Both the position numbers and the translations under genes were made by a program. The notes below the pieces were generated by a model. The model did no database searches, was not told the DNA's origin, and was given only the letters and a program-made list of their open reading frames with translations. This document shows, in pieces, positions 1-21,350 of a DNA stretch of 21,773 bases (its first letter is position 1; every line of letters starts with the position of its first letter). The DNA comes from a virus, in the IMG/VR virus record IMGVR_UViG_3300042923_000965, positions 1 to 21,773 of that record. One strand, given 5' to 3'.

Positions 1-167
1 ATGTAGCTAATTTATTGAAGGTAAAAACGATAATTACCTTAACAGTTATCATTGCTGTATCTGTATTGGCTGTAAAAGGCAAAGAAATTGATGCAGCATA
101 TCTCACGATTGCAGGAACAATTATTGCTTTTTATTTTAGCAAGTCAGATTCGAAGAAGGAGGAATAG
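1..167 (+). CDS. Small membrane protein, probable holin (5' end outside window)
   Basis: The open frame enters from the window edge (first full codon at 3) and stops at 165-167, leaving 54 visible residues. These form two hydrophobic stretches (around ITLTVIIAVSVLAV and YLTIAGTIIAFYF) separated by a short charged turn, and end in a lysine/glutamate-rich tail (SDSKKEE). That hairpin topology with a charged C-terminus, placed two bases upstream of an endolysin gene, is what small phage holins look like. A holin would form inner-membrane lesions that release or activate the endolysin at the end of the lytic cycle. The ribosome site of the endolysin (AGGAGGA, 157-163) lies inside this gene's last codons, so the two are translationally coupled. 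Holins are too diverse to name the family, so the call rests on topology and position. Confidence 0.6.
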   Translation, partial: VANLLKVKTIITLTVIIAVSVLAVKGKEIDAAYLTIAGTIIAFYFSKSDSKKEE

Positions 168-169
168 AT

Positions 170-931
170 TTGAAGAATTATTTAACATACCCTGTCAAGT
201 TTATGAACATAAGTCAAAGTTGGACAGGCGAATACAGTCACGCTCCACACGTTTCAGGGGTTCCTTGTGACTTTCCGATTGATGAAGCCGGAGAGGATGC
301 ATATAGAAGTTGGATGCATTGTCCTTGCGATGAGATGGTTGTAAAGCGTATTAGCGGTCTAGGAAGTGCCTATATCAACACGATATGGCTACAATCAACA
401 TCAAAAGTTATCCTGGCAAATGGGGAAGAAGATTATGTAGTAATAATGGTGTTGCATCCAGATGATGATGATTTATTAAAGGTAAAAGTTGGCCGAACAT
501 TTAAACGCAGTGAATTGATGTTCAGAGAGGGCAGAGACGGCTATTTGACAGGCAAGGCAACAGGCTACCATTTCCATATGAGCGTTGGACAAGGGCAAAT
601 AAAGGGTAATGGATGGCAACAAAACAGTAAGGGTACATACGTTTTGACTACAACCGTAGGACCTTTAAAACCAGAAGATGCTTTTTTTGTTGATCCGTAC
701 TTTACTAAAATTAAAAGTAGCAAAGATCTGCTATTTAAAAACTTACCGAAAGAGGTGATAGAAGTGAAAGAAATAGGAAAAGAAGTAGTAATAGATCAAC
801 CTGCAGAGTGGGCAAAAATATCCTGGAATAAAGCTGCAGTTAAAAAAATATTAGACGGAACTAGACCAGGGGAACAACTTACACGACAAGAGTTTGCTTG
901 TGTACTAGATAGACTTGGATTACTAAATTAA
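170..931 (+). CDS. Endolysin, M23-type peptidoglycan endopeptidase
   Basis: A 253-residue protein starting at TTG, 6 bases after AGGAGGA. Zinc-peptidase-like motifs are visible: His24/His27 followed by Asp34 (HVSGVPCD), His96, and the HxH pair His134-His136 (GYHFHMS), matching the His-x(n)-Asp and HxH layout of LytM/M23 metallopeptidases that cut peptide crosslinks in peptidoglycan. There is no signal peptide, as expected for an enzyme released by a holin. The C-terminal ~45 residues (from about 209) contain W..A.......DGT.PG..LTRQEF, an SLH-like pattern seen at the end of many clostridial phage lysins and probably a wall-binding element. The gene closes the lysis cassette and is followed at once by a terminator. 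The family is moderately sure because the first metal motif is spaced more widely than in typical M23 enzymes; the lysin role is well supported by context. Confidence 0.75.
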   Translation: MKNYLTYPVKFMNISQSWTGEYSHAPHVSGVPCDFPIDEAGEDAYRSWMHCPCDEMVVKRISGLGSAYINTIWLQSTSKVILANGEEDYVVIMVLHPDDDDLLKVKVGRTFKRSELMFREGRDGYLTGKATGYHFHMSVGQGQIKGNGWQQNSKGTYVLTTTVGPLKPEDAFFVDPYFTKIKSSKDLLFKNLPKEVIEVKEIGKEVVIDQPAEWAKISWNKAAVKKILDGTRPGEQLTRQEFACVLDRLGLLN

Positions 932-938
932 AACAATG

Positions 939-967
939 CCCCTAGCCTTATGGTTAGGGGTAATTAT
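939..967 (+). terminator. Intrinsic terminator after the lysis cassette
   Basis: CCCCTAGCC (939-947), loop TTAT, then GGTTAGGGG (952-960): a 9-bp stem with one G-T wobble, starting 8 bases after the endolysin stop and followed by an AT-rich but not pure T tract. It probably ends the late transcript. Confidence 0.7.
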
Positions 968-1157
968 TATTAGCTATTATTTCACCGATCATTTCTTTTA
1001 AATCTTTTTTACCAAATCTTAATATATCTGTAAAACTTGAATTCAAAACACGTTTGTCCTTACCAGTGTAATACTGCTTGTATCTGTTTATATATCTCAG
1101 TATTCCTATCTTATCTATAATATCACCTTCCTTGTACATATTATATAGAAGAAACAT
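954..1157 (-). CDS. Possible small protein of unknown function
   Basis: A 67-codon open frame converging on the endolysin gene, with its stop codon inside the terminator stem at 939-960. The composition looks protein-like (alternating charged and hydrophobic residues, for example RYINRYKQYY and FGKKDLKEMIGEII). However, neither the ATG at 1157 nor the one at 1139 has a visible ribosome site, and no promoter was found. It may be a small accessory gene or the remains of one. I recognise no family. It is listed because it fills most of the space between the lysis cassette and the attachment region. Confidence 0.3.
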   Translation of the reverse strand: MFLLYNMYKEGDIIDKIGILRYINRYKQYYTGKDKRVLNSSFTDILRFGKKDLKEMIGEIIANNNYP

Positions 1158-1240
1158 TGATTTATAAATAGTACATTGGTACTAGAAAAGTAACATTATG
1201 ATATTTTGAGAAAGGTACATATATAATTTGATATTATTAC

Positions 1241-1266
1241 GTGGACAATGTCCACAGCTTGTCCAC
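1241..1266. repeat. Left cluster of TGTCCAC repeats
   Basis: Three copies: GTGGACA at 1241-1247, TGTCCAC at 1249-1255 (together a near-perfect 15-bp palindrome) and TGTCCAC at 1260-1266. Probably integrase arm-binding sites. Confidence 0.75.
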
Positions 1267-1404
1267 ACTGAATAAGTTTTATTGTGAGATAGTAGGTGAT
1301 TATAAATTGCAAAAAGTAGTATACAATTTGGAAAATGCTTAATTTTCAGTTGTTGTAAAGAATCTTAAATCTTTATAAGTTATACAAGATGTTGTACAAG
1401 GAGA

Positions 1405-1476
1405 ATGGGTAACAACCCAATGGTTGGCGCAACAGTTGCAGTAGCTGTAGCAATTGAAGAAGGAATGAATAAGTAA
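1405..1476 (+). other. Coding-like short segment, possible attachment core or end of a host gene
   Basis: An ATG-to-TAA frame of 23 codons (MGNNPMVGATVAVAVAIEEGMNK). It is less AT-rich than its surroundings and ends in a helix typical of an enzyme C-terminus. The frame stays open for a few codons upstream, and an AAGGAGA lies just before the ATG at 1398-1404. Two readings are possible. It may be the 3' end of a host gene carried in attP so that integration restores that gene, as many tyrosine-integrase phages do, or it may be a real micropeptide with its own ribosome site. I do not recognise the host protein. Confidence 0.35.
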
Positions 1477-1530
1477 AAACAAGGATTTGTATAATTTGAA
1501 ATAATTTTAAAAAAGATATATATAATAATT

Positions 1531-1577
1531 TGTCCACGATTTGTCCACGTTTTTTTTATACGTGGACAACGTGGACA
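1531..1577. repeat. Right cluster of TGTCCAC repeats forming a large hairpin
   Basis: TGTCCACG (1531-1538) and TTGTCCACGT (1541-1550) face ACGTGGACAA (1560-1569) and CGTGGACA (1570-1577). Together they can fold into an 18-bp stem with a 2-base bulge and a 9-base loop of T/A. It starts 4 bases beyond the integrase stop, so it may both bind integrase and terminate the leftward integrase transcript. Confidence 0.75.
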
Positions 1578-1580
1578 TTT

Positions 1581-2768
1581 TTATTTTAATATATCTTCCA
1601 AGATATTAATCGTATGAATCTGCATTTTTTCAGTTACGTGTGCATAGGTTTGCAATGTAGTTTCAATGTTTTTATGACCTAGTCGGTGTTGAACATCTTT
1701 TATATTTGCCCCTGCTTCAAGTAACATAGTTGTGTGTGTATGTCGTAAAGAATGATAATCAAATTCTTTATTTCCTAACTGATAATGAACAACCCTTCCA
1801 AGATGCTGTGTAACTCGGGGCTGAATATATGTTCCGTCTTCTCTAATGTTCACCATCCATATTGGAGTACCTTTTGAACCGAGTTGTTTTTTTTCATTAA
1901 CGTATAGCTGTGAATAATGGTCAGCGTAATATTCTTTTGCTTTCTCCTGCCTTGCTTTTTCTCTTTGCAAAAGAGACATCAAAAACGAATCAATTTTTAT
2001 TACTCTAAACGAATCATATTTTGGATTTGTAAAAGTCCAATATTTGTCTTGCTCCTGAACTTGTTTATTTATATCTAATGTAGAATTGGCAAAGTCTATA
2101 TCATTCCAGGTCAAAGCGAACACTTCACCAAGGCGTAAACCACATCTGTAAGCTAGTTGTAAAGGAATATGACAGCTATGACCTTCAGGAAACCTTGTTA
2201 ATATTGCTTCCATCGTTTCTTTATTAACTATTTGCTTTTCTTTTTTTCTTGTTGGTGTATTTGCTACGGCGCGCGGTGAAGGAAGTTTTACTGCCAACAT
2301 AGGATTGCTTTGTATAAATCCAAGTGGCTCAATGGCGTATCCTAAACAACCCGATAAAATACCCTTAATAGATGCGAGTGTATTTCTGCTATAGCCGTCA
2401 TTAAACTTACTGTTTGTAAATAATTGAAGAACGGCAGGCGTAAGAGCTTTTAACTTATATATTCCAAGAGCGGGCTTTATGTGTATACGTATTTTTTTTT
2501 CATAACCTTCGCATGTTGTTTTCTTTAAATTTATTTCACAATATTCTTTCATCCAATAATCCAAGTAATCTGAAAAGGATATTTCAGATGGAGTAAAGCG
2601 TAATCCAGCGTTGTTATATTCGGCAAGTGCTTTAGCTCCTGCTTCAAGGCATACTTTTTTAGTTATAAAACCACCTTTGGTTATTTGATTTCTATTTCCA
2701 TTAATCTTGGCACCCTCAAATCGGTATTCCCATTTTGAACCTCTTTTTCTGACATTGATTTCTGCCAT
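1581..2768 (-). CDS. int: Tyrosine-type site-specific integrase
   Basis: A 395-residue protein of the phage integrase / Tn916-like tyrosine recombinase family that joins attP to attB and, with an excisionase, reverses the reaction. The N-terminal ~60 residues fit an AP2-type arm-binding domain (KWEYRFEG...). Residues ~62-160 form the SAM-like core-binding domain. The catalytic domain carries Arg212 (GLRLGE), Lys250, His339 and Arg342 (HSLRH), His365 (LGH) and the nucleophile Tyr375 (TYAH), so all catalytic residues are present. I chose the ATG at 2768 because AAAGGG lies about 8 bases upstream; the in-frame GTG at 2777 overlaps that site. It reads away from the repressor, with the attP candidate just past its stop. 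Confidence 0.95.
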   Translation of the reverse strand: MAEINVRKRGSKWEYRFEGAKINGNRNQITKGGFITKKVCLEAGAKALAEYNNAGLRFTPSEISFSDYLDYWMKEYCEINLKKTTCEGYEKKIRIHIKPALGIYKLKALTPAVLQLFTNSKFNDGYSRNTLASIKGILSGCLGYAIEPLGFIQSNPMLAVKLPSPRAVANTPTRKKEKQIVNKETMEAILTRFPEGHSCHIPLQLAYRCGLRLGEVFALTWNDIDFANSTLDINKQVQEQDKYWTFTNPKYDSFRVIKIDSFLMSLLQREKARQEKAKEYYADHYSQLYVNEKKQLGSKGTPIWMVNIREDGTYIQPRVTQHLGRVVHYQLGNKEFDYHSLRHTHTTMLLEAGANIKDVQHRLGHKNIETTLQTYAHVTEKMQIHTINILEDILK

Positions 2769-3009: not shown

Positions 3010-3450
3010 TTAATTATTACACTTCAATTTTAATAATTCAATATCATATCCTGTCTTATAAGAAAGTTGTTCTAAAGTAAAACCTCTAAATTGATTAATT
3101 AATTCATCGTCTATTAATAACTCTGCAGCAAATTTATTAGCTTGAATCTCAATTTTTGAAGTAAGTAAAAACGTTTTAGATGCCATAAAACAACAATTTG
3201 TTCTAGTATGCAATATAGCATGACCTATCTCATGGGCCATAACCATCTTTGAATTAACGTAATCTAAGTTGCTATTTAGAAAAATACATTTGTGTTTTTT
3301 TAAATACATATAGCATCCTGAAAATTTACCAAGGTCACCTTTTTGAACTATAATTTTTAAATAATCAGCTAATAGAAATGGATCATTTGTCTTATACTTT
3401 CTTGTATAGTACGAAACTATATTCTTAATATCGCCCCCCAAAAACCTCAC
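3010..3450 (-). CDS. immA: ImmA/IrrE-family metallopeptidase
   Basis: A 146-residue protein with the zinc-protease motif HEIGH in MAHEIGHAILH (about residues 82-92) and a later glutamate region (EIQANKFAAELL) that supplies the third ligand, the signature of COG2856/DUF955 proteases. Characterised members such as ImmA of ICEBs1 cleave the cognate HTH repressor after DNA damage or a cell-cell signal and so induce the element. Its gene begins directly after the repressor stop codon (GTG at 3450; TAG at 3451-3453), so the two are co-translated, which fits protease and substrate. The exact start is uncertain because the ribosome site is weak; a TTG a few codons inside is an alternative. Confidence 0.85.
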   Translation of the reverse strand: MRFLGGDIKNIVSYYTRKYKTNDPFLLADYLKIIVQKGDLGKFSGCYMYLKKHKCIFLNSNLDYVNSKMVMAHEIGHAILHTRTNCCFMASKTFLLTSKIEIQANKFAAELLIDDELINQFRGFTLEQLSYKTGYDIELLKLKCNN

Positions 3451-3879
3451 CTACTTCTTATTCTTGTTAGGATTGTATAACGCCTTATTGTATGCTTTTA
3501 AACGTTTTAACATTAATTCTAATTCATCTCTAAACAGTTCAGTTGTTTCTTCTGACATGTCAACTCCGTTAAAGTTTATTGGTCCGTCTTCATCGCTATT
3601 GAGTTTTTTCATTATGCTATTTAAGTCTTTTGCTATGTCTTTTTCATCTCTTAATGTTAATAATGATTTTGGTATTTCAGTAATATCTTCTCTTCCAGTT
3701 ATTAAATAGTCAATAGACACACCAAAATAATCAGCAATTAATTGCAATTTATCTTGCTTTGGGGTACTTACACCTGTCTTCCAGGCAGTGAAAGTAGACT
3801 GTCCGATACCTGTTTCTTTCGCTACCTTATAAGTAGTCACATTGTGTTTTAGTAATAATTGCTCAAAAATTTCATACAT
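3451..3879 (-). CDS. CI-like XRE-family repressor
   Basis: A 142-residue DNA-binding protein with an N-terminal helix-turn-helix (TYKVAKETGIGQSTFTAWKTG) in the first ~65 residues, followed by an acidic C-terminal half with an EETTELFRDELELMLKRLKAY helix, probably for oligomerisation or for contact with ImmA. The start is taken as the ATG at 3879, with AAAGGTG a few bases upstream; upstream extension to 3909 is unlikely. It is divergent from the Cro-like gene at 4112, whose helix-turn-helix is strikingly similar, so both should compete for the ACTTC sites between them. Role: maintaining lysogeny by shutting the rightward early promoter at 3936-3964. Confidence 0.9.
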   Translation of the reverse strand: MYEIFEQLLLKHNVTTYKVAKETGIGQSTFTAWKTGVSTPKQDKLQLIADYFGVSIDYLITGREDITEIPKSLLTLRDEKDIAKDLNSIMKKLNSDEDGPINFNGVDMSEETTELFRDELELMLKRLKAYNKALYNPNKNKK

Positions 3880-5680: not shown

Positions 5681-7626
5681 AATTAAAACTTAAAGAATTA
5701 CACATACAGAATTTTAAGGGTTGTAAGAACTCTAAAATTAACTTTAAAAATAGGACAAGTATTTATGGCCAAAATGGTTCAGGAAAAACTACAATAGCAG
5801 ATGCATTCTTCTGGGTACTATTTAACAAAGATAGCAACGGTTCAACTAACTTTGATATTAGACCAAAAGATTCTACCGGAGCAGACATTGATTTTATAGA
5901 TATTCAAGTTGACCTAATAGTTGAAGTAGACGGTAAAGAATTGAGTATTAATAAAACTCAAAAACAAAAATGGGTTAAGAAACGCGGATCAGAAGAAAAA
6001 ACTTTTGAGGGTAATGAGAGTTCTTATGAAGTTAATACGATTCCTAAATCAGAGAAAGAGTTTAGGGCTTATATAGATAATTTGATATCAGAGGACGTAT
6101 TCAAGTTTGTGTCAAACACAAGTGCGTTTATGGCACAAAAGCCGGCTGAAAGGCGAGAAACATTGTTTGAATTGGTATCAGAGATTACGGACGTAGATGT
6201 GTTGGCTACAGATAAAAAGTTATTAGATGGACTATCAGATTTATTAGCACAGTTTACAGTTGATGAACTTATGAGCCGTAGCGCAAAAGCATTGAAAGAA
6301 TATAAGAAGAAATTAGAAGAGGTACCTGCAAGGATAGACGAAGTTTCAAAAACCATAGTTGATATAGATTATACAGAACACGAAGAACATTTAAAAGAAC
6401 TCAAAAGTCAGTTAGCTCAAATTGAAGAGCAAATTGCAGATGGCTCCAAAGGGCACGAATTATTAACCCAACTTAAAGATGAAATAGCTTCAATCAAAGA
6501 TAAGATGGCTGATATTGAGAGAGCTGAAAAGAAAAATCTCAATGATAAGAGGCAGGCTGTCCAAACTAAAATTGATTACGCAGGTATTACTTTTAATGAA
6601 CTATTCAACAAGCAAAAGAAGATTGAAAGCGACTTGGAACTTAAAAAATCTACTCTTCCTAACAATGAACAATATCTAGAAAAGTTAGGTAGCGATTACA
6701 AAGAAGAAAAAGTAAAAGAACTGGACCATACAACAACATTTTGTCCTACTTGTCACCAAGAGCTCCCAGGAGAAATGAAAGAGGAATTAATCAAAAATTT
6801 TGCAGCTAAAAAGGATGAAAGGTTACTTGAAATTAATATAAAAGGTAAAAGTGTTGCTGACTCCATCAAAAAAGACAAAGCCGATATTGACACATTAGAA
6901 AAAGAACTTGAAATAGTCAAGGCAGATAAGGTCATTGCTAATGGTGAAAGGAATAAATTATCTACAGAGTTAGAGACAATTCCTACAACAATTGGTACTG
7001 AAATGCTTATGGATATAGAAGAGTATCATAAATTACGCATTGATTTAAGCAACCAAAGCAAATATCTAGAGGAGCTTCAGAACGGTTCTGATGATGATAA
7101 GAAGAATGTATTAATCCAACAAAAACGAGCTATACAAACTGATATTGATAATACCAATAAAACTATAGCAGGCAAACAAGTTATTGAATCAGCTAAGATT
7201 AGGGTAGAAGAATTAAAGTCAGAGCAAAAGGACTTGTCGCAAAAAATTGCTACTGTAGAAAAGGAAATCTATCTATTAGAAGAGTTCAATAAAACAAAAG
7301 TAAATATGTTATCTGAGAAAATCAACAGTCATTTTAAAGTAGTTAAGTGGAAATTGTTTGAACGTCAGATAAACGGTGGATACAAGCCAGTATGTGAGCC
7401 ATTGATTAAAGGCCAATCTTACAACAATGGATTAAATTCAGGGCATAAAATTTTAGCAGAACTCGATATAATCGCAACTCTTCAAAAGATTTATGAAGTT
7501 GAGGTACCTGTGTTTGTTGATAATGCAGAGCGTATTAATGGTTTTAATATTCCGGATATGGATTGCCAGTTGATAACGCTTAATGTAAGTGGTGATAGAG
7601 AATTGAAAGTGGAGGTAAGTAAATAA
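5677..7626 (+). CDS. SMC/Rad50-like AAA ATPase of phage recombination module
   Basis: A 649-residue protein laid out like SbcC/Rad50. It has an N-terminal ABC half-site with Walker A GQNGSGKT (about residues 31-38), a long coiled coil (~200-340), a zinc-hook-like CPTC at 356-359, a second coiled coil (~385-560), and a C-terminal half-site with the Walker-B-like VPVFVDNAER (~605-615). At 649 residues it is shorter than full SbcC (about 1,000). Usual Rad50 proteins have Asp-Glu at Walker B; here Asp-Asn-Ala-Glu is seen. Established relatives work with an SbcD/Mre11 nuclease, but none is encoded next to it. RecT follows with a 1-base overlap, so it probably organises or loads DNA ends for RecT annealing. 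Confidence 0.85.
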   Translation: MKLKLKELHIQNFKGCKNSKINFKNRTSIYGQNGSGKTTIADAFFWVLFNKDSNGSTNFDIRPKDSTGADIDFIDIQVDLIVEVDGKELSINKTQKQKWVKKRGSEEKTFEGNESSYEVNTIPKSEKEFRAYIDNLISEDVFKFVSNTSAFMAQKPAERRETLFELVSEITDVDVLATDKKLLDGLSDLLAQFTVDELMSRSAKALKEYKKKLEEVPARIDEVSKTIVDIDYTEHEEHLKELKSQLAQIEEQIADGSKGHELLTQLKDEIASIKDKMADIERAEKKNLNDKRQAVQTKIDYAGITFNELFNKQKKIESDLELKKSTLPNNEQYLEKLGSDYKEEKVKELDHTTTFCPTCHQELPGEMKEELIKNFAAKKDERLLEINIKGKSVADSIKKDKADIDTLEKELEIVKADKVIANGERNKLSTELETIPTTIGTEMLMDIEEYHKLRIDLSNQSKYLEELQNGSDDDKKNVLIQQKRAIQTDIDNTNKTIAGKQVIESAKIRVEELKSEQKDLSQKIATVEKEIYLLEEFNKTKVNMLSEKINSHFKVVKWKLFERQINGGYKPVCEPLIKGQSYNNGLNSGHKILAELDIIATLQKIYEVEVPVFVDNAERINGFNIPDMDCQLITLNVSGDRELKVEVSK

Positions 7627-13824: not shown

Positions 13825-14598
13825 TTATTTATCTAAAATACATATATTATGAAAAGCGTCTCCATAAGACGTGATGTCTATGCGCGAATGATTAAATTCA
13901 ATTTTAGATTCTGGGTATCGAGCTATATAGGGTTCAACAAAATATATTTGCTTAGCTTGTATTTCAGTTTCATTATACAATTCAGTATTGCCATAAGATA
14001 TGTACTGAGGAATATCGATTAATCTTTGACGTATCAAATTATCAATAGATAGTTGTTGCTGCGCATACGTAAGTATATTGAATAAATTGAAGTTTTTAGC
14101 TAAAGTTAGATAATTACCTTTTGTATTAAGTTTAAGATGTACATCTATAAGGGGTCGAACGTTTATGGAACATAGATATTTAAAGAGTATAGCATCTTCT
14201 GGTGAAAGTTGTTTAATAGTTTCAACAAACGAAGGATGAACCGTTTCTTTGGTATCAATATTCATAGATTTAGCAAGTAAATTAGCGTATAAATTACGAA
14301 GTTCTGCATTATCCATTGAATATGATATTGCTTGTAACGCAGGGACAGCGACATAAGGCTCTGGTGAAACAATTTTTTCTAGACCAATATTATTTAATTT
14401 AATAGCAAGAAGCTTTTCAGTTTCAGCAAGATTATATTCTCTCTGCGCAACCCACTTACGTACTGGAGTAAGAGCAGCATTAATAGTTCGAGGTAACAAT
14501 GATAAGGTTTTACCCAATTCCTTTGCGGTAGGTTGTGCGACATCATTATAAATTTCAGGAACAGTTTCAATAACTTTACTTAATTTGTCCACAGACAT
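13825..14598 (-). CDS. Abi-alpha (DUF4393) abortive-infection-type protein
   Basis: A 257-residue protein. The central part (about 75-150: PEPYVAVPALQAISYSMDNAE, LRNLYANLLAKSMN, then VHPSFVETIKQLSPEDAILFKYL) matches the Abi_alpha/DUF4393 family, whose founding annotation is abortive infection. The N-terminal segment (TLSLLPRTINAALTPVRKWVAQREY) is amphipathic and could touch the membrane. Members occur widely in prophages and mobile elements; the mechanism is not well established. It has its own ribosome site (AAAGGTGA before ATG 14598) and runs against all the surrounding early genes, the mark of an independently expressed lysogenic accessory gene. It probably protects the lysogen against other phages. 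Confidence 0.8.
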   Translation of the reverse strand: MSVDKLSKVIETVPEIYNDVAQPTAKELGKTLSLLPRTINAALTPVRKWVAQREYNLAETEKLLAIKLNNIGLEKIVSPEPYVAVPALQAISYSMDNAELRNLYANLLAKSMNIDTKETVHPSFVETIKQLSPEDAILFKYLCSINVRPLIDVHLKLNTKGNYLTLAKNFNLFNILTYAQQQLSIDNLIRQRLIDIPQYISYGNTELYNETEIQAKQIYFVEPYIARYPESKIEFNHSRIDITSYGDAFHNICILDK

Positions 14599-14975: not shown

Positions 14976-15413
14976 GTGACTAAAGATATACTGATACAAT
15001 ATGTTGACCTGAAAGAGGAAATAAAGGATCTAGAAAAGCGTATAGCTGATTTAGAAAAGCAATCCAAGGAAATACAAAAAGATATTGTCAAAGGATCCTC
15101 TAGTGAGTTTCCTTATACAGAACATAATTTTAATATTGCAGGGATTGGAATTAATAGCTTGGGTAGTTATAGCAACAGAATTATCAAGATTAATAGGTAT
15201 AAAGCTAATCTCAAAGCTAGTTATGATGATCTTCTTGAATTGCAGACTAAAGCCGAGGAATACATAAATAGTAACGAAAATAGTAGGATTAGAAGAATTA
15301 TGAGGTATCGCTTTGTGGATGGACTAAATTGGGTTCAGGTGGCTCATAGGATGGGTGGGAGAAGTACTGCTGATAGTTGCAGGATGGAATTAAACAGGTA
15401 TGTTGATAAATAA
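14976..15413 (+). CDS. ArpU/DUF1492-like late transcription regulator
   Basis: A 145-residue protein starting at GTG after TTAGGAGGG. The first ~35 residues are a charged coiled coil (LKEEIKDLEKRIADLEKQSKEIQ), the middle contains a second helix pair, and the end (RIRRIMRYRFVDGLNWVQVAHRMGGRSTADSCRMELNRYV) is a sigma-70 region-4-like helix-turn-helix. This is the architecture of the ArpU, RinA and DUF1492 late activators that sit between replication and packaging genes and switch on terminase and structural transcription. Its position fits, except that the accessory block lies between it and the terminase. Confidence 0.8.
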   Translation: MTKDILIQYVDLKEEIKDLEKRIADLEKQSKEIQKDIVKGSSSEFPYTEHNFNIAGIGINSLGSYSNRIIKINRYKANLKASYDDLLELQTKAEEYINSNENSRIRRIMRYRFVDGLNWVQVAHRMGGRSTADSCRMELNRYVDK

Positions 15414-16058: not shown

Positions 16059-16354
16059 TATTCCAATAATTTAAGAGGATAATTGTATAACAAAATTCGT
16101 TATGTTCGGTTAAAATAGTTTATAATTTAAAATGTCGATAGATAGAGTTTGCTATCAGTTGACCTCCTGTGGTGTACGGTTGCCAAGTGTCAAAACTTGG
16201 TGGCTGATTAAACCGATTTTCTATTATTCTTTGTTCCGGTTCAAGAATGACGGTGGGTAAGCGTATACCGTAATAACGCAGAGTGGAATGTCCTATAGTA
16301 CTCACCACTTAAAAATAAAATGACTATTGTTGGCAACTGTCTTACACGTTGCGA

Positions 16355-16425
16355 GGAATTGTAGCTCAGTTGGTAGAGCAACTCAATATATGAGTATATC
16401 GCAGGATCGTAGCCTGTCAATTCCC
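16355..16425 (+). ncRNA. tRNA-like structure with non-decoding loops
   Basis: All four stems of a cloverleaf are present: acceptor GGAATTG (16355-16361) with CAATTCC (16418-16424), 7 of 7 pairs; TA linker; D arm GCTC/GAGC with canonical loop AGTTGGTA; anticodon-arm equivalent ACTCA/TGAGT (16381/16391); 5-base variable region; T arm GCAGG/CCTGT (16401/16413). But the anticodon loop is only ATATA. Re-pairing to a 7-base loop gives UAU with A instead of the invariant U33. The T loop reads ATCGTAG, with the 54-58 pair reversed, and CCA is not encoded. Stem integrity with loop decay argues for selected structure without decoding: a decoy, a processing signal or a domain of the larger RNA. A young pseudogene is the alternative. 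Confidence 0.65.
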
Positions 16426-16513
16426 CTGGAGAATATATCTTTTCCTGTTTCTGTGCGTACTCCATACAAAACGAAAGCAAACAGGCCCCCAAAGTTTTAT
16501 CCCCTAAAACCAT

Positions 16514-16540
16514 CCACTCCCCTGGGTGGTATTGTTGTTG
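16514..16540 (+). terminator. Possible terminator of the structured RNA
   Basis: CCACTC (16514-16519), loop CCCT, GGGTGG (16524-16529), then the T-rich TATTGTTGTT. It abuts the next promoter (16538), which supports separate transcription units. Confidence 0.5.
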
Positions 16541-16566
16541 AATAAAATGAGAAATAATGGTAGAAT
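16538..16566 (+). promoter_or_regulatory. Promoter of the ATPase-STAS operon
   Basis: TTGAAT (16538-16543), 17-bp spacer, TAGAAT (16561-16566), about 48 bases ahead of the ATPase start codon. Confidence 0.65.
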
Positions 16567-16614
16567 ATAGAGAATAATGGTGAAGTATACATAATCATAT
16601 TGGGGAGTGTCAAA

Positions 16615-17778
16615 ATGAATAATATAGATTTGCTCTTAAATAAAAATAATAAAAGTATTACGAAAATTAAGATACAAGAGAAATGTGCGGTATTTGACAA
16701 TAAAGAAGAGATTTTTTCAGGAAAAACAATAGGGAGAATTATAAAGTTTGTTAATTCTTTACATAATCAGTATCCTAAATTAAAAATACCTATCATTTTT
16801 AATTTAGGTGAAATATCATTTATTGATAAATTATCATATATTTTACTAGAATGCATATGCTATAATTTAATAGTTAATTATAAGCAAAAAGTACATATAT
16901 TATGCACTGTTAAAAAAGAAATTGGTACAGAAGGGGCTTATTCCTCTCCTTTATTATTACTAAACGGGATTGATAAGGATAATATTCAAAAATTTGGGCA
17001 AAAATTTATTAAAGACACATACGGATATCATTTACGAAGAGTTATAAATGGGAATGAACTAGAAAATAGTAATTATCTTGGACTTTTATACCAGGAGGTA
17101 GATTCTTTTTTAAAGATATTCAGTGTTGACGAACAGTGTAGAGATGATATTTCAGAGGTAGTTGCAGAGTTAGTTGGGAATGCTTGCGAACATGCAGGTT
17201 CTGATTGTTTGGTTGATATAGATGTTTCCTCTGGGTATAATAAATCTACGAATAATGTTATTGATGAAGATAATTATTATTATGGAATTAATATTGTTGT
17301 GGTAAATTTTTCGGAGACATTATTAGGTAATGATATTAAAAAGAAAGTATCTTTGAAATCTGATTGTGAAACAGAAAGGTATAAAAAGGTATATAATGCA
17401 TATGATTTTCATAAGAAACAATTTAATGATGAGTACAAAAAAGAAGATTTTTATAACATTACTGCATTCCAACATAAAATATCTGGACGACAAAAATACG
17501 AATCAACAGGAGGAACAGGATTAACTCAATTAGTTAAATCTTTAGAAGAGAGGTCAGAAGCACATAGATGTTATGTGATAAGTGGAGATAGAGCATTAAA
17601 TTTTTATCAAGAAATGTTAGAATTTAATAGTGACCAATGGATAGGATTTAATGAACAAAATGATTATTTTAGCAACATTCCCGAGAATGGTGTTGTAACA
17701 GAATGCTTGATTAATATGCCTGGGACGGCATACAATCTTAACTTTGTTATGAAAGGAGAAAAAATAAATGGAGAATAA
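16615..17778 (+). CDS. STAS-like plus GHKL ATPase protein, candidate partner-switch sensor
   Basis: A 387-residue protein starting at ATG 16615 after GGGGAG. Residues ~20-115 look like a STAS/MlaB-type fold (KIPIIFNLGEISFIDKLSYILLECI). Residues ~170-375 form a GHKL (HSP90/histidine-kinase/anti-sigma) ATPase domain with the N-box EVVAELVGNACEHA (181-194, Asn189) and glycine-rich lid STGGTGLTQL (297-306). The G1 box is unusual: IVVVNFSETL (227-236) replaces the usual D-x-G, so nucleotide turnover may be altered. No phospho-acceptor histidine domain is present. It is read with a DUF4325-type STAS-like protein and a membrane protein, which suggests an anti-sigma/anti-anti-sigma-like switch coupled to an effector. 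This is a known fold set but no system I can name. Confidence 0.75.
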   Translation: MNNIDLLLNKNNKSITKIKIQEKCAVFDNKEEIFSGKTIGRIIKFVNSLHNQYPKLKIPIIFNLGEISFIDKLSYILLECICYNLIVNYKQKVHILCTVKKEIGTEGAYSSPLLLLNGIDKDNIQKFGQKFIKDTYGYHLRRVINGNELENSNYLGLLYQEVDSFLKIFSVDEQCRDDISEVVAELVGNACEHAGSDCLVDIDVSSGYNKSTNNVIDEDNYYYGINIVVVNFSETLLGNDIKKKVSLKSDCETERYKKVYNAYDFHKKQFNDEYKKEDFYNITAFQHKISGRQKYESTGGTGLTQLVKSLEERSEAHRCYVISGDRALNFYQEMLEFNSDQWIGFNEQNDYFSNIPENGVVTECLINMPGTAYNLNFVMKGEKINGE

Positions 17779-18055
17779 AATTGATTTAAAATTTGACAAA
17801 ATGACTACTAGGTTAGCTGGAAATCCGTATGGAAAATCGGTATATAAAGAACAAGTTAAAGATAAAATAGATTTTTCAAAAATAAATATCATTTGTTTCC
17901 CTGAAAATATAGAGAAAATCGCATCGTCCTTTACACAAGGCTTTTTCACTGAAATTATTAATGAAATAGGATTTAATGGGATTGATACTAAAATTAAATT
18001 AATTACTAAAAAAAAGGAATTGGAAGAGGAAGTATTAAGAGATTTATTTTCATAA
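17768..18055 (+). CDS. STAS-like (DUF4325-type) protein
   Basis: A 95-residue protein overlapping the ATPase gene by 11 bases, with AAAGGAG upstream. It has the DUF4325 pattern: an N-terminal basic TRLAGNPYGKSVY motif (14-26), a strand KINIICFP, then IEKIASSFTQGFFTEIINEIG, the helix that in STAS proteins carries the switch serine (SSF here), and a final amphipathic helix. Such proteins occur beside GHKL ATPases and are thought to act as their binding partner, as SpoIIAA does for SpoIIAB. Whether Ser49 or Ser50 is phosphorylated cannot be told from sequence. Confidence 0.75.
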   Translation: MENKIDLKFDKMTTRLAGNPYGKSVYKEQVKDKIDFSKINIICFPENIEKIASSFTQGFFTEIINEIGFNGIDTKIKLITKKKELEEEVLRDLFS

Positions 18056-19307: not shown

Positions 19308-21350
19308 TTGGCAAGAGCTAGAGACCCAAATAGAGACAAAGCATATGACATATATATGCAACATAATGGCAACATAGATTTAGTTGAGATAGCTAGTCAA
19401 CTAAATACTTCTCCTGGATCAGTGCGAGGGTGGAAGTCTAAAGATAAATGGGAACAGAAGTTGAACGGAACGTTCCAATCAGATACGGAACGTTCCAAAC
19501 AAATGAATAAGGTTAAAAAGAAAGTCTTTGATGATGGGACTAAGGAAACTATGTTAAACGAGAACCTTACCCACGAACAAAGGCTTTTTTGTATATATTA
19601 CAGTAAGATATTTAATGCTACCCAAAGTTATCAGAAGGCTTACCAGTGTAGTTATGATGTAGCAAATTCAGAAGGATATAAGCTCCTTGTAAAACCTTGT
19701 GTAAAGTCAGAAATCCAACGACTAAACGAATTGAAGCGTCAACAGATAGTTGCTAATGAAAGTGATCTACTTGAATACCATATGCGAATAGCTTTCTCTG
19801 ACATAGGTAATTACCTCAGTTTTGGGATAAAGGCAATAGAAGAGACAGATGGCGAGGATATAAAGCATACATACAATATAAATTATGTGGACCTTAAAGA
19901 ATCATCTGAAATAGATACGCAGCTCATTCAAGAGGTCAAGCAAGGTAGGGATGGTATATCAATCAAACTTGCTGATAAGTATAAGTCTTTGGATTGGTTA
20001 GATAAATATTTCTTAATTAATCCTATGGATAAGCACAGGATAGAATTTGATAAGAAGAAGTATGAATTAGAATGTAAGAAGCTAGAGCCAGACGACAAGG
20101 CAACAGGTATTATATACAGAGGAACACCTTCCACAATGATAGCTCCTGCATTTGCTCCAGTAGTTTTTGATATCGATAATAAAGATCATAGAGAATATGT
20201 TTTCCCTGGTGGTCGTGGTTCTACTAAATCATCATTTATTAGTGAACAGGTAATAGATCTGTTGATGAAGAATGACGGTATCCATGCATTAGTTGGAAGA
20301 CAAGTTGCTGACACTCTTAGAACGTCCGTATATGCTCAGATACAATGGGCAATAGATGCATTGGGATTACAAGATGAATTTTATTGTACTGTAAGTCCTT
20401 TGGAGATTACACGAAAGAGCACCGGTCAAAAGATATACTTCCGTGGAGCTGATGATCCAGGTAAGATTAAATCAATAAAGGTACCCTTTGGCTATATCGG
20501 AATTCTATGGTTGGAAGAATTAGATCAGTTTGCCGGAGAAGAAGCGGTTAGAAAGATAGAACAGTCCGTTATTCGTGGTGGTGAATTAGCTTATATATTT
20601 AAGTCATTCAACCCTCCTAAATCAGCTAATAACTGGGCAAATAAGTATATTAAGATACCGAAAGCAAGTAGATTAGTAACCTGGTCAACATATTTAGATG
20701 TTCCTAGGCAATGGCTAGGAAAGCCTTTCCTTGATGAAGCGGACTTCCTTAAAGAGGTTAATCCTACTGCATACGAAAACGAATATATGGGTATTGCAAA
20801 TGGGACTGGTGGAGCTGTATTTGATAATGTTATTGTAAGAGCTATTACAGATGATGAGATTAAACAATTTGACCGCATATACAACGGTGTCGATTGGGGC
20901 TTTTACCCTGACCTATATTCATTTGTTAGGCTACAATATGAACCTGCTCAACATAGACTTTATATTTGGCAGGAATATACCAGTAATAAACAGTCTAATA
21001 GAGAAACTGCAGATAAACTCCTTGAATTAGGGATTACTGCAAATGACCTTATAACGTGCGATAGTTCAGAGAATAAATCAGTAGGAGATTACAGAAATTA
21101 TGGATTGCTAGCAAGATCTGCGATAAAAGGACCTGATAGTCGGAAGTATTCATATAAGTGGCTGCAGTCATTAAAGGAAATCATTATCGATAATGTGCGT
21201 TGTCCTGAGGCAGTGCAAGAGTTTCTTAATTACGAGTATGATCGAGATAAAGAAGGTAATGTAATATCAGGATATCCAGATGGTAACGATCACGTTATAG
21301 ATGCTGTAAGATATGCAACTGAATCTATTTGGAAGAAACGAGGACAATAA
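19308..21350 (+). CDS. Fused terminase, small-subunit and large-subunit domains (PBSX/XtmB type)
   Basis: A 680-residue protein with TTG start after GAGGTGGTGA. Residues 1-55 (RDPNRDKAYDIYMQHNGNIDLVEIASQLNTSPGSVRGWKSKDKWE) are the phBC6A51/PBSX-type helix-turn-helix of small terminases. Residues ~86-160 (LTHEQRLFCIYYSKIFNATQSYQKAYQ...) are the Terminase_2 DNA-recognition domain. Residues ~260-680 are a complete large subunit: Walker A GGRGSTKSS (301-309), Walker B GILWLEELDQF (~396-406), and nuclease aspartates in NGVDWGFYPD (~525-534) and NDHVIDAVRYA (~658-668). In most phages these are two genes; here one frame without a break codes both. It recognises pac/cos DNA, pumps it into proheads and cuts it. 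Portal follows. Confidence 0.92.
   Translation: MARARDPNRDKAYDIYMQHNGNIDLVEIASQLNTSPGSVRGWKSKDKWEQKLNGTFQSDTERSKQMNKVKKKVFDDGTKETMLNENLTHEQRLFCIYYSKIFNATQSYQKAYQCSYDVANSEGYKLLVKPCVKSEIQRLNELKRQQIVANESDLLEYHMRIAFSDIGNYLSFGIKAIEETDGEDIKHTYNINYVDLKESSEIDTQLIQEVKQGRDGISIKLADKYKSLDWLDKYFLINPMDKHRIEFDKKKYELECKKLEPDDKATGIIYRGTPSTMIAPAFAPVVFDIDNKDHREYVFPGGRGSTKSSFISEQVIDLLMKNDGIHALVGRQVADTLRTSVYAQIQWAIDALGLQDEFYCTVSPLEITRKSTGQKIYFRGADDPGKIKSIKVPFGYIGILWLEELDQFAGEEAVRKIEQSVIRGGELAYIFKSFNPPKSANNWANKYIKIPKASRLVTWSTYLDVPRQWLGKPFLDEADFLKEVNPTAYENEYMGIANGTGGAVFDNVIVRAITDDEIKQFDRIYNGVDWGFYPDLYSFVRLQYEPAQHRLYIWQEYTSNKQSNRETADKLLELGITANDLITCDSSENKSVGDYRNYGLLARSAIKGPDSRKYSYKWLQSLKEIIIDNVRCPEAVQEFLNYEYDRDKEGNVISGYPDGNDHVIDAVRYATESIWKKRGQ

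Follow-up and report, generated by a model that had tools for sequence, protein, structure and literature searches.

A conserved hairpin in the leader RNA ahead of the packaging genes of Lachnospirales phages and prophages, and its proposed place in late transcription

What kind of RNA, if any, is made from the gene-free block at positions 16132-16540 of the window, by which we mean the whole 21,773-base stretch analysed here, an entire IMG/VR record that agrees base for base, over the stretches compared, with a 33-kb contig from a second record? The original prediction saw in this block a candidate structured RNA of about 400 nt with an embedded tRNA-like fold, perhaps a new member of the large, ornate ROOL or GOLLD type of phage RNA or a new class. 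The window is a Lachnospiraceae-type prophage, with genes for an integrase, a repressor, RecT, SSB, a primase, Abi_alpha and a terminase, and the answer begins with what lies on either side of the block.

The late-operon setting of the block

The order at the locus is a phrog_36 gene, a promoter, hairpin 1, CCTCC, the 12-bp hairpin 2, a varied series of further elements and finally the terminase gene at 19308. The features are as follows.

14976-15413, plus strand: late transcription activator of 145 aa, sigma-region-4/HTH-like, phrog_36 (PHROGs match, E 2.3e-17)
16096-16126, plus strand: late promoter, read from sequence, with TTCG repeats 9 nt apart (16096-16099 and 16105-16108) and the -10 box TATAAT (16121-16126)
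16134-16163, plus strand: hairpin 1 (RNAfold), where the transcript is predicted to begin
16163-16167, plus strand: CCTCC, separating the two hairpins and found in most homologues
16177-16209, plus strand: hairpin 2 (16177-16206), a 12-bp stem with a GUCANA hexaloop, followed by GATT; the family core (51.9-53.9 bits to models R1/R2; covariation)
16211-16250, plus strand: H-type pseudoknot, with S1 pairing 16211-16215 with 16237-16241 and S2 pairing 16224-16230 with 16244-16250 (topology shared with other leaders)
16252-16288, plus strand: RNA module B (GGTGGGTAAGCGTATACCG..AACGCAGAGTGGAAT), common to L049 and L071
16303-16352, plus strand: RNA module C (..TTGTTGGCAACTGTCTTACACGTTGC), common to L049 and the tRNA-array phages L060/L061
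16355-16425, plus strand: tRNA-like fold, called tRNA-Ile UAU (ARAGORN, Rfam)
16509-16530, plus strand: 3' hairpin with an ACUCCCC loop and a T-rich tail, weak and terminator-like (-11.2 kcal/mol)
16538-16566, plus strand: promoter-like site ahead of the small-gene cassette that follows (TTGAAT-17-TAGAAT, the second hexamer preceded by TG)
16600-18055, plus strand: two cargo genes, for a 392-aa protein (ATG at 16615) and for a 95-aa DUF4325/STAS-like protein (ORFs, domain matches)
19308-21350, plus strand: terminase of 680 aa, start of the packaging operon (Pfam Terminase_2 and Terminase_3)

The phrog_36 family supplies the gene that precedes the leader in all 12 loci tested, and in the window a single small gene stands between it and the block. 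The promoter has no good -35 in its sequence, and repeats spaced by 9 nt are found at the corresponding place in L038, L041, L049 and L072 (L numbers denote the loci compared), where the -10 box is preceded by a 5-nt repeat (TGTTC, TGTTA, TGTTA, TGTCC) in three copies spaced at exactly 9 nt. Short repeats at this spacing before a -10 box are the pattern expected for activator sites, and they are likely to be those of the phrog_36 late activator. The block as the 5' leader RNA of the prophage late (packaging/structural) operon is well supported.

The outward features by which the block had been recognised were found again. Its longest plus-strand reading frame is one of 72 aa with a TTG start and no support, so the block is indeed gene-free; it is also less AT-rich than its neighbours, as had been noted, with 38-40% G+C against 20-27% in most flanking windows, and the TATAAT box on its left and the hairpin, T-rich tail and new promoter on its right are all in place. 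RNAfold drew about a dozen stems in 16090-16545 (-115.1 kcal/mol, z = -2.0, with 2 of 100 shuffles equally good), a modest signal for single-sequence folding. The count of about ten stems thus stood but their membership of one fold did not, the block being a chain of separately inherited modules. The evidence that goes beyond chance is comparative, coming from covariation in hairpin 2, the pseudoknot and the shared modules, and that the block is a real structured RNA, with a tRNA-like fold inside it as predicted, is well supported by these homologues and their covariation.

The 392-aa cargo protein is without a Pfam match and shows 35% identity to one unannotated gut phage contig; a search of viral contigs for relatives of the protein downstream of the block returned the same virus only. 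In the terminase, the small- and large-subunit domains are fused in one 680-aa reading frame. Beside the late region, on the minus strand, lies the Abi_alpha gene (13825-14598; Pfam 7e-46), which also matches the PADLOC candidate defence family PDC-S47 (6e-95).

Hairpin 2 and the pseudoknot behind it

ROOL and GOLLD are non-coding phage RNAs that lie near or contain tRNAs, and GOLLD has a conserved 3' region and is often over 800 nt long (PMC12286853). The block differs on each of these counts, as it is about 410 nt long, is conserved in its 5' part, has a conserved core of some 35-80 nt rather than hundreds, and is otherwise a mosaic. Its only Rfam matches, at gathering score or up to E 10, were tRNA (RF00005) and one chance CRISPR-DR match. 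The ROOL and GOLLD models matched neither the block nor its counterpart in Blautia phage Montmirail (L006) at gathering score or E <= 10, and the models for the T-box, group I/II introns, HEARO and EAR were unmatched in the block up to E 10, so that it is a member of none of these. The proposed ROOL or GOLLD membership therefore falls, and the alternative of a new class is the one that holds, with tRNA alone matching among the Rfam families. The idea of a free-standing RNA fares no better in its context, since a constant 5' region of about 80 nt leads a late operon and the other 330 nt or so are variable cargo. Rfam matches to GP20-b and SpF41 in relatives were set aside, as they are located elsewhere in those loci.

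A blastn search with the block against phages and plasmids gave no match. The region before the terminase gene of Montmirail carries the same hairpin, at about 17,066 of ON453898.1 and between a promoter and a tRNA-Asn, and the pattern that it has in common with the window (CGGYTG-N5-TGTCA-N9-GGCTGATT) was found in 27 stretches of viral contigs, with identical spacing in nearly all of them though 15 spacings were allowed. In about 20 of the 27, a promoter-like site and the hairpin are followed by a terminase small-subunit gene (terS), often with small genes in between. Matches in L012/L018/L027, L013, L016, L037 and L042 were dropped as chance, being without promoter context and scoring poorly with the model. 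The covariance model R1 added further divergent copies in bacterial genomes (L049-L059, L072), and by this model about 2% of the genomes in family samples carry hairpin 2; class- and phylum-wide searches added no member outside the genomes that the narrower ones had yielded. Hairpins resembling hairpin 2 at 43 bits in two contigs of about 160 kb (L028 3784-3816 and L032 3826-3858) directly follow a gene, in surroundings where no terminase was seen. They were excluded from the alignments and may be relatives or chance.

Hairpin 2 is an RNA structure that is conserved across its homologues. It recurs as 35 distinct sequences in Lachnospirales phages and prophages, in which 98.6% of cells are paired and changes on both sides occur at nine of the 12 pairs, so that compensatory changes, which a search for homologues was meant to look for, were found. 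None of 500 shuffles reached any of the five covariation measures, and slid controls were far lower. In L072, both sides have changed at two basal pairs. The loop is UGUCANA in most members, and two basal positions retain G-U wobbles, a feature that argues for an RNA structure rather than a DNA palindrome. Of the elements around it, hairpin 1 has a counterpart in just some of the homologues (L014, L033, L034 and L035), and CCTCC is absent from L017 and L025; hairpin 2 is the constant part of the leaders, and the sequence behind it varies. In L057, L059 and L067, hairpin 2 and the pseudoknot lie inside a late operon, ahead of a terminator and a small gene.

The strictness with which the hexaloop and basal G-U pairs of hairpin 2 are conserved would fit recognition by a protein, and the hairpin might accordingly be a putative site for a protein, of phage or host origin, with a regulatory role outside termination, for example in RNA stability or in a coupling of late transcription to packaging. 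We consider this improbable, as the only adjoining candidate for a partner gene is the activator, which is of a DNA-binding type, and as the terminators before terS (discussed below) would be left unexplained.

Directly 3' of hairpin 2 in L049, interleaved helices of 7 and 9 bp form a pseudoknot that none of 200 shuffles equalled, and the same topology with other sequences was seen in L020, L023, L050, L057, L059, L066 and L067 (0-9 of 200 shuffles as good). Taken alone, the pseudoknot of the window is weaker (5 + 7 bp, 13 of 200 shuffles as good), and its 5' sequence is repeated exactly in L075 behind a shortened hairpin 2. The total is the window and nine other leaders, a count based on topology compared by script and not on pair counts, MAFFT having misplaced gaps for the window and L020. 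A pseudoknot in every leader was rejected, because the best candidates in L006, L014, L021, L022 and L024 were no better than shuffles; the element is common, not universal.

These comparisons also bear on the possibility that the block consists of the scrambled remains of tRNA genes or is a functionless chance fold. A degenerate tRNA-like fold and single-sequence folding only mildly above shuffles are what such an origin would produce, but the strong covariation of hairpin 2 contradicts it for the 5' part, and it is hard to reconcile with a pseudoknot in ten leaders and with modules B and C conserved across unrelated phages. We regard it as very improbable for the block; tRNA remains, whose discovery had been named in advance as grounds for refutation, would fit 16355-16425 at most and not the rest.

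Exchangeable modules and tRNA-like folds

Behind the constant 5' part, different pieces of the block are common to different phages. Module B in L071, a 60-kb phage contig with no hairpin 2 match in the stretch searched, directly abuts a tRNA-like fold whose first 27 bases are those of the window. Module C occurs in L060/L061, where a hairpin 2 match is likewise absent. In the window, L014, L033, L034 and L075, the tRNA-like is succeeded by a hairpin whose loop is C-rich (ACTCCCC or similar). As the modules are separately common to different phages, the block is an assembly of exchangeable parts. Searches of the phage collection with the regions holding modules B, C, E and F gave tRNA and coding matches only.

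Other arrangements of such parts were observed along the way. Module E (GTTTAGCCTTTGCATNAAATGGTTTCGC..CATGGRAAATAACGTTTGG) is common to L071 (about 3430-3590, reverse complement), L033 and L075 (5545-5600), and in all three it directly abuts the 5' end of a tRNA-like fold. The stretch of L060 that has module C in common with the window (about 1-2330, minus strand) and its counterpart in L061 form a 2.5-kb array, which holds tRNAs, tRNA-likes whose D or anticodon arms are odd, long structured spacers and an HU gene. In Montmirail, two annotated small hypothetical proteins, WAK79243.1 (L006 4589-4708) and WAK79244.1 (L006 4803-4904), overlie the structured leader, and they are probably not genes.

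The tRNA-like fold of the window was matched by RF00005 at 16355-16425/6 with 46.3 bits (E 1.3e-8), ARAGORN agrees in calling it tRNA-Ile UAU, and it forms a cloverleaf with acceptor, D, anticodon and T arms. The positions that matter in a tRNA include U33, T54, A58 and, for Ile, the discriminator A73. Here, the fold departs from a tRNA that it otherwise resembles in its acceptor, D and T arms, as it has A33, A54, U58 and C73 in their stead; an encoded CCA is also absent from 16355-16425.

Could the leader then simply be a late-expressed tRNA-Ile(UAU) gene that serves AUA codons, with hairpin 2 and the modules stabilising or processing its precursor? Both programs call the tRNA, AUA makes up 212 of the 469 Ile codons in the main ORFs, and canonical tRNAs are found in three homologous leaders (L006, Asn; L023, Met; L050, Ile), that of L050 also being Ile-UAU. 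The chance of this being right nevertheless seems small, for the window fold has lost all four of the positions above, many leaders (L015, L017, L020, L021, L026 and L035) are without any tRNA, and several tRNA-likes have abnormal anticodon arms. The latter arms are enlarged, missing or displaced in L014, L034, L075, L011, L022, L029, L033 and L041.

RNase P and RNase Z chiefly need the acceptor and T arms, which makes a processing signal a fair reading of the tRNA-like; its role would most simply be that of an RNase P/RNase Z processing signal or that of a decayed tRNA, and of the two, decay is the simpler. Whether RNA processing or decoys are involved is a separate question, raised by the tRNA-likes with abnormal anticodon arms. 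Those of L014, L034 and L075 (5600-5681) have a conserved anticodon loop of about 18 nt, GCGCGCGCAYAACARGUA, with acceptor and T arms that differ, and to our knowledge no known tRNA type fits these folds.

Terminators and proposed antitermination

Of 28 loci, 14 have an intrinsic terminator that stops 20-37 nt short of a gene start, either that of terS or that of the first gene in the packaging operon. Another promoter would not fit into this gap, so that any transcript begun at the leader promoter has to pass the terminator. Predicted intrinsic terminators number 1.19 per kb behind the hairpin and 0.32 upstream of it, rough figures because the loose pattern anchored the wrong site in L026, L036, L038 and L041. 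Terminators directly before the terminase genes also occur in two of five terminase relatives that lack hairpin 2 (L009 and L010), and such terminators are therefore not specific to carriers. The window has none directly before its terminase gene, and its own terminator-like hairpin (16509-16530) is weak. The leaders of L017, L035 and L015 could equally be read as short RNAs ending at the first terminator.

A constant promoter-near hairpin, terminators and a variable cargo recall three known systems. HK022 put (putL) consists of two stem-loops of about 70 nt just behind a promoter, a phage leader RNA with operon terminators downstream (PMC9378689). Compared by layout, the window is similar, with hairpins at 16134-16163 and 16177-16206 behind TATAAT and terminators in the homologues, hairpin 1 being unclear in some; put, however, belongs to the early operons of a lambdoid E. 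coli phage, whereas the window leader belongs to a late operon of Lachnospiraceae phages, often with a pseudoknot and tRNA-like cargo. The canT RNA of Tn916 is a structured RNA of 452 nt and a processive, cis-acting antiterminator at intrinsic terminators (PMC11658703). It resembles the block as a structured RNA of about 450 nt from a Gram-positive mobile element, with cis-antitermination a feature of canT itself; compared by description, it comes from another kind of element, and the description consulted mentions no conserved short core hairpin. The dfn leader, finally, has a UNCG-type hairpin and an intrinsic terminator in a Gram-positive operon and is bound by the NusG paralogue LoaP (PMC12691694). 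The leader hairpin and intrinsic terminator are alike, but the loop of hairpin 2, UGUCANA, is not of the UNCG type. No gene for a NusG-like partner was present among the window proteins searched, a scan that a host-encoded one would escape.

By analogy with put, canT and dfn, the leader is best read as a cis-acting, processive antitermination RNA of the put/canT kind, with the tRNAs, tRNA-likes and small genes as its cargo, and we hold this with moderate confidence. We infer the following course for transcription and antitermination, and with it the place of the tRNA-like fold. The late activator would turn on the promoter at about 16121, and hairpin 1 and the conserved hairpin 2 would open the transcript, in many leaders with the pseudoknot next. 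This 5' part would act in cis on RNA polymerase during elongation, whether by itself in the manner of HK022 put or via a bound factor, as with LoaP and the dfn hairpin, and the polymerase so modified would resist the intrinsic terminators between the leader and the packaging genes. The conserved hairpin, in short, probably helps RNA polymerase to ignore stop signals. The space behind the element would thereby be free for cargo with terminators of its own, such as small genes, tRNAs, tRNA-likes and other RNA modules; in the window, this cargo would comprise modules B and C, the tRNA-like fold, the ACUCCCC hairpin and the genes at 16600-18055.

The same elements could instead make up a trans-acting late RNA, a stand-alone non-coding RNA of some 130-450 nt composed of promoter, leader and terminator and perhaps trimmed by RNase P/RNase Z at the tRNA-like. 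A promoter and terminator without an ORF, recurrent C-rich stretches and structured modules (B, C and E) conserved between unrelated phages speak for such an RNA. We think it unlikely, however, as the invariable part is one short promoter-near hairpin while the remainder differs among phages, and as the 14 loci described above need read-through of a terminator if terS is to be expressed from the leader promoter. Action through the C-rich CCTCC and ACUCCCC stretches on Shine-Dalgarno sequences, which forms part of this trans-acting reading, is similarly doubtful, with CCTCC missing in L017 and L025.

The leader RNA would represent a new family whose proposed antitermination function is of a known kind. 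It is absent from Rfam 15, and a literature search found no account of it; a bare prediction may be listed in a large set of microbiome RNA predictions (PMC8040213). The literature search likewise found no description of late-gene expression through terminators in these gut Clostridia phages. If the cis-acting antitermination reading is true, a short conserved RNA hairpin is the Gram-positive late-operon counterpart of put, and the build-up of tRNAs and small genes with their own terminators ahead of terminase genes is explained. A more far-reaching version is tentative and, on balance, rather doubtful: that a new RNA family governs late transcription in Lachnospiraceae phages through an antiterminator hairpin and pseudoknot, either protein-free or factor-assisted; that the front of the packaging operon is a landing site for RNA cargo; and that tRNA-likes with odd anticodon arms are RNase P/Z cut sites or decoys, which unrelated phages trade together with the modules B, C and E on their 5' side.

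A last observation concerns one of the terminase relatives without hairpin 2, Roseburia phage Jekyll (L010). Right before its terminase gene, positions 5865-5977 match the Rfam SpF41 sRNA with 53.5 bits, and a strong terminator lies 29 nt ahead of that gene; the region is perhaps another leader RNA from the same kind of place.
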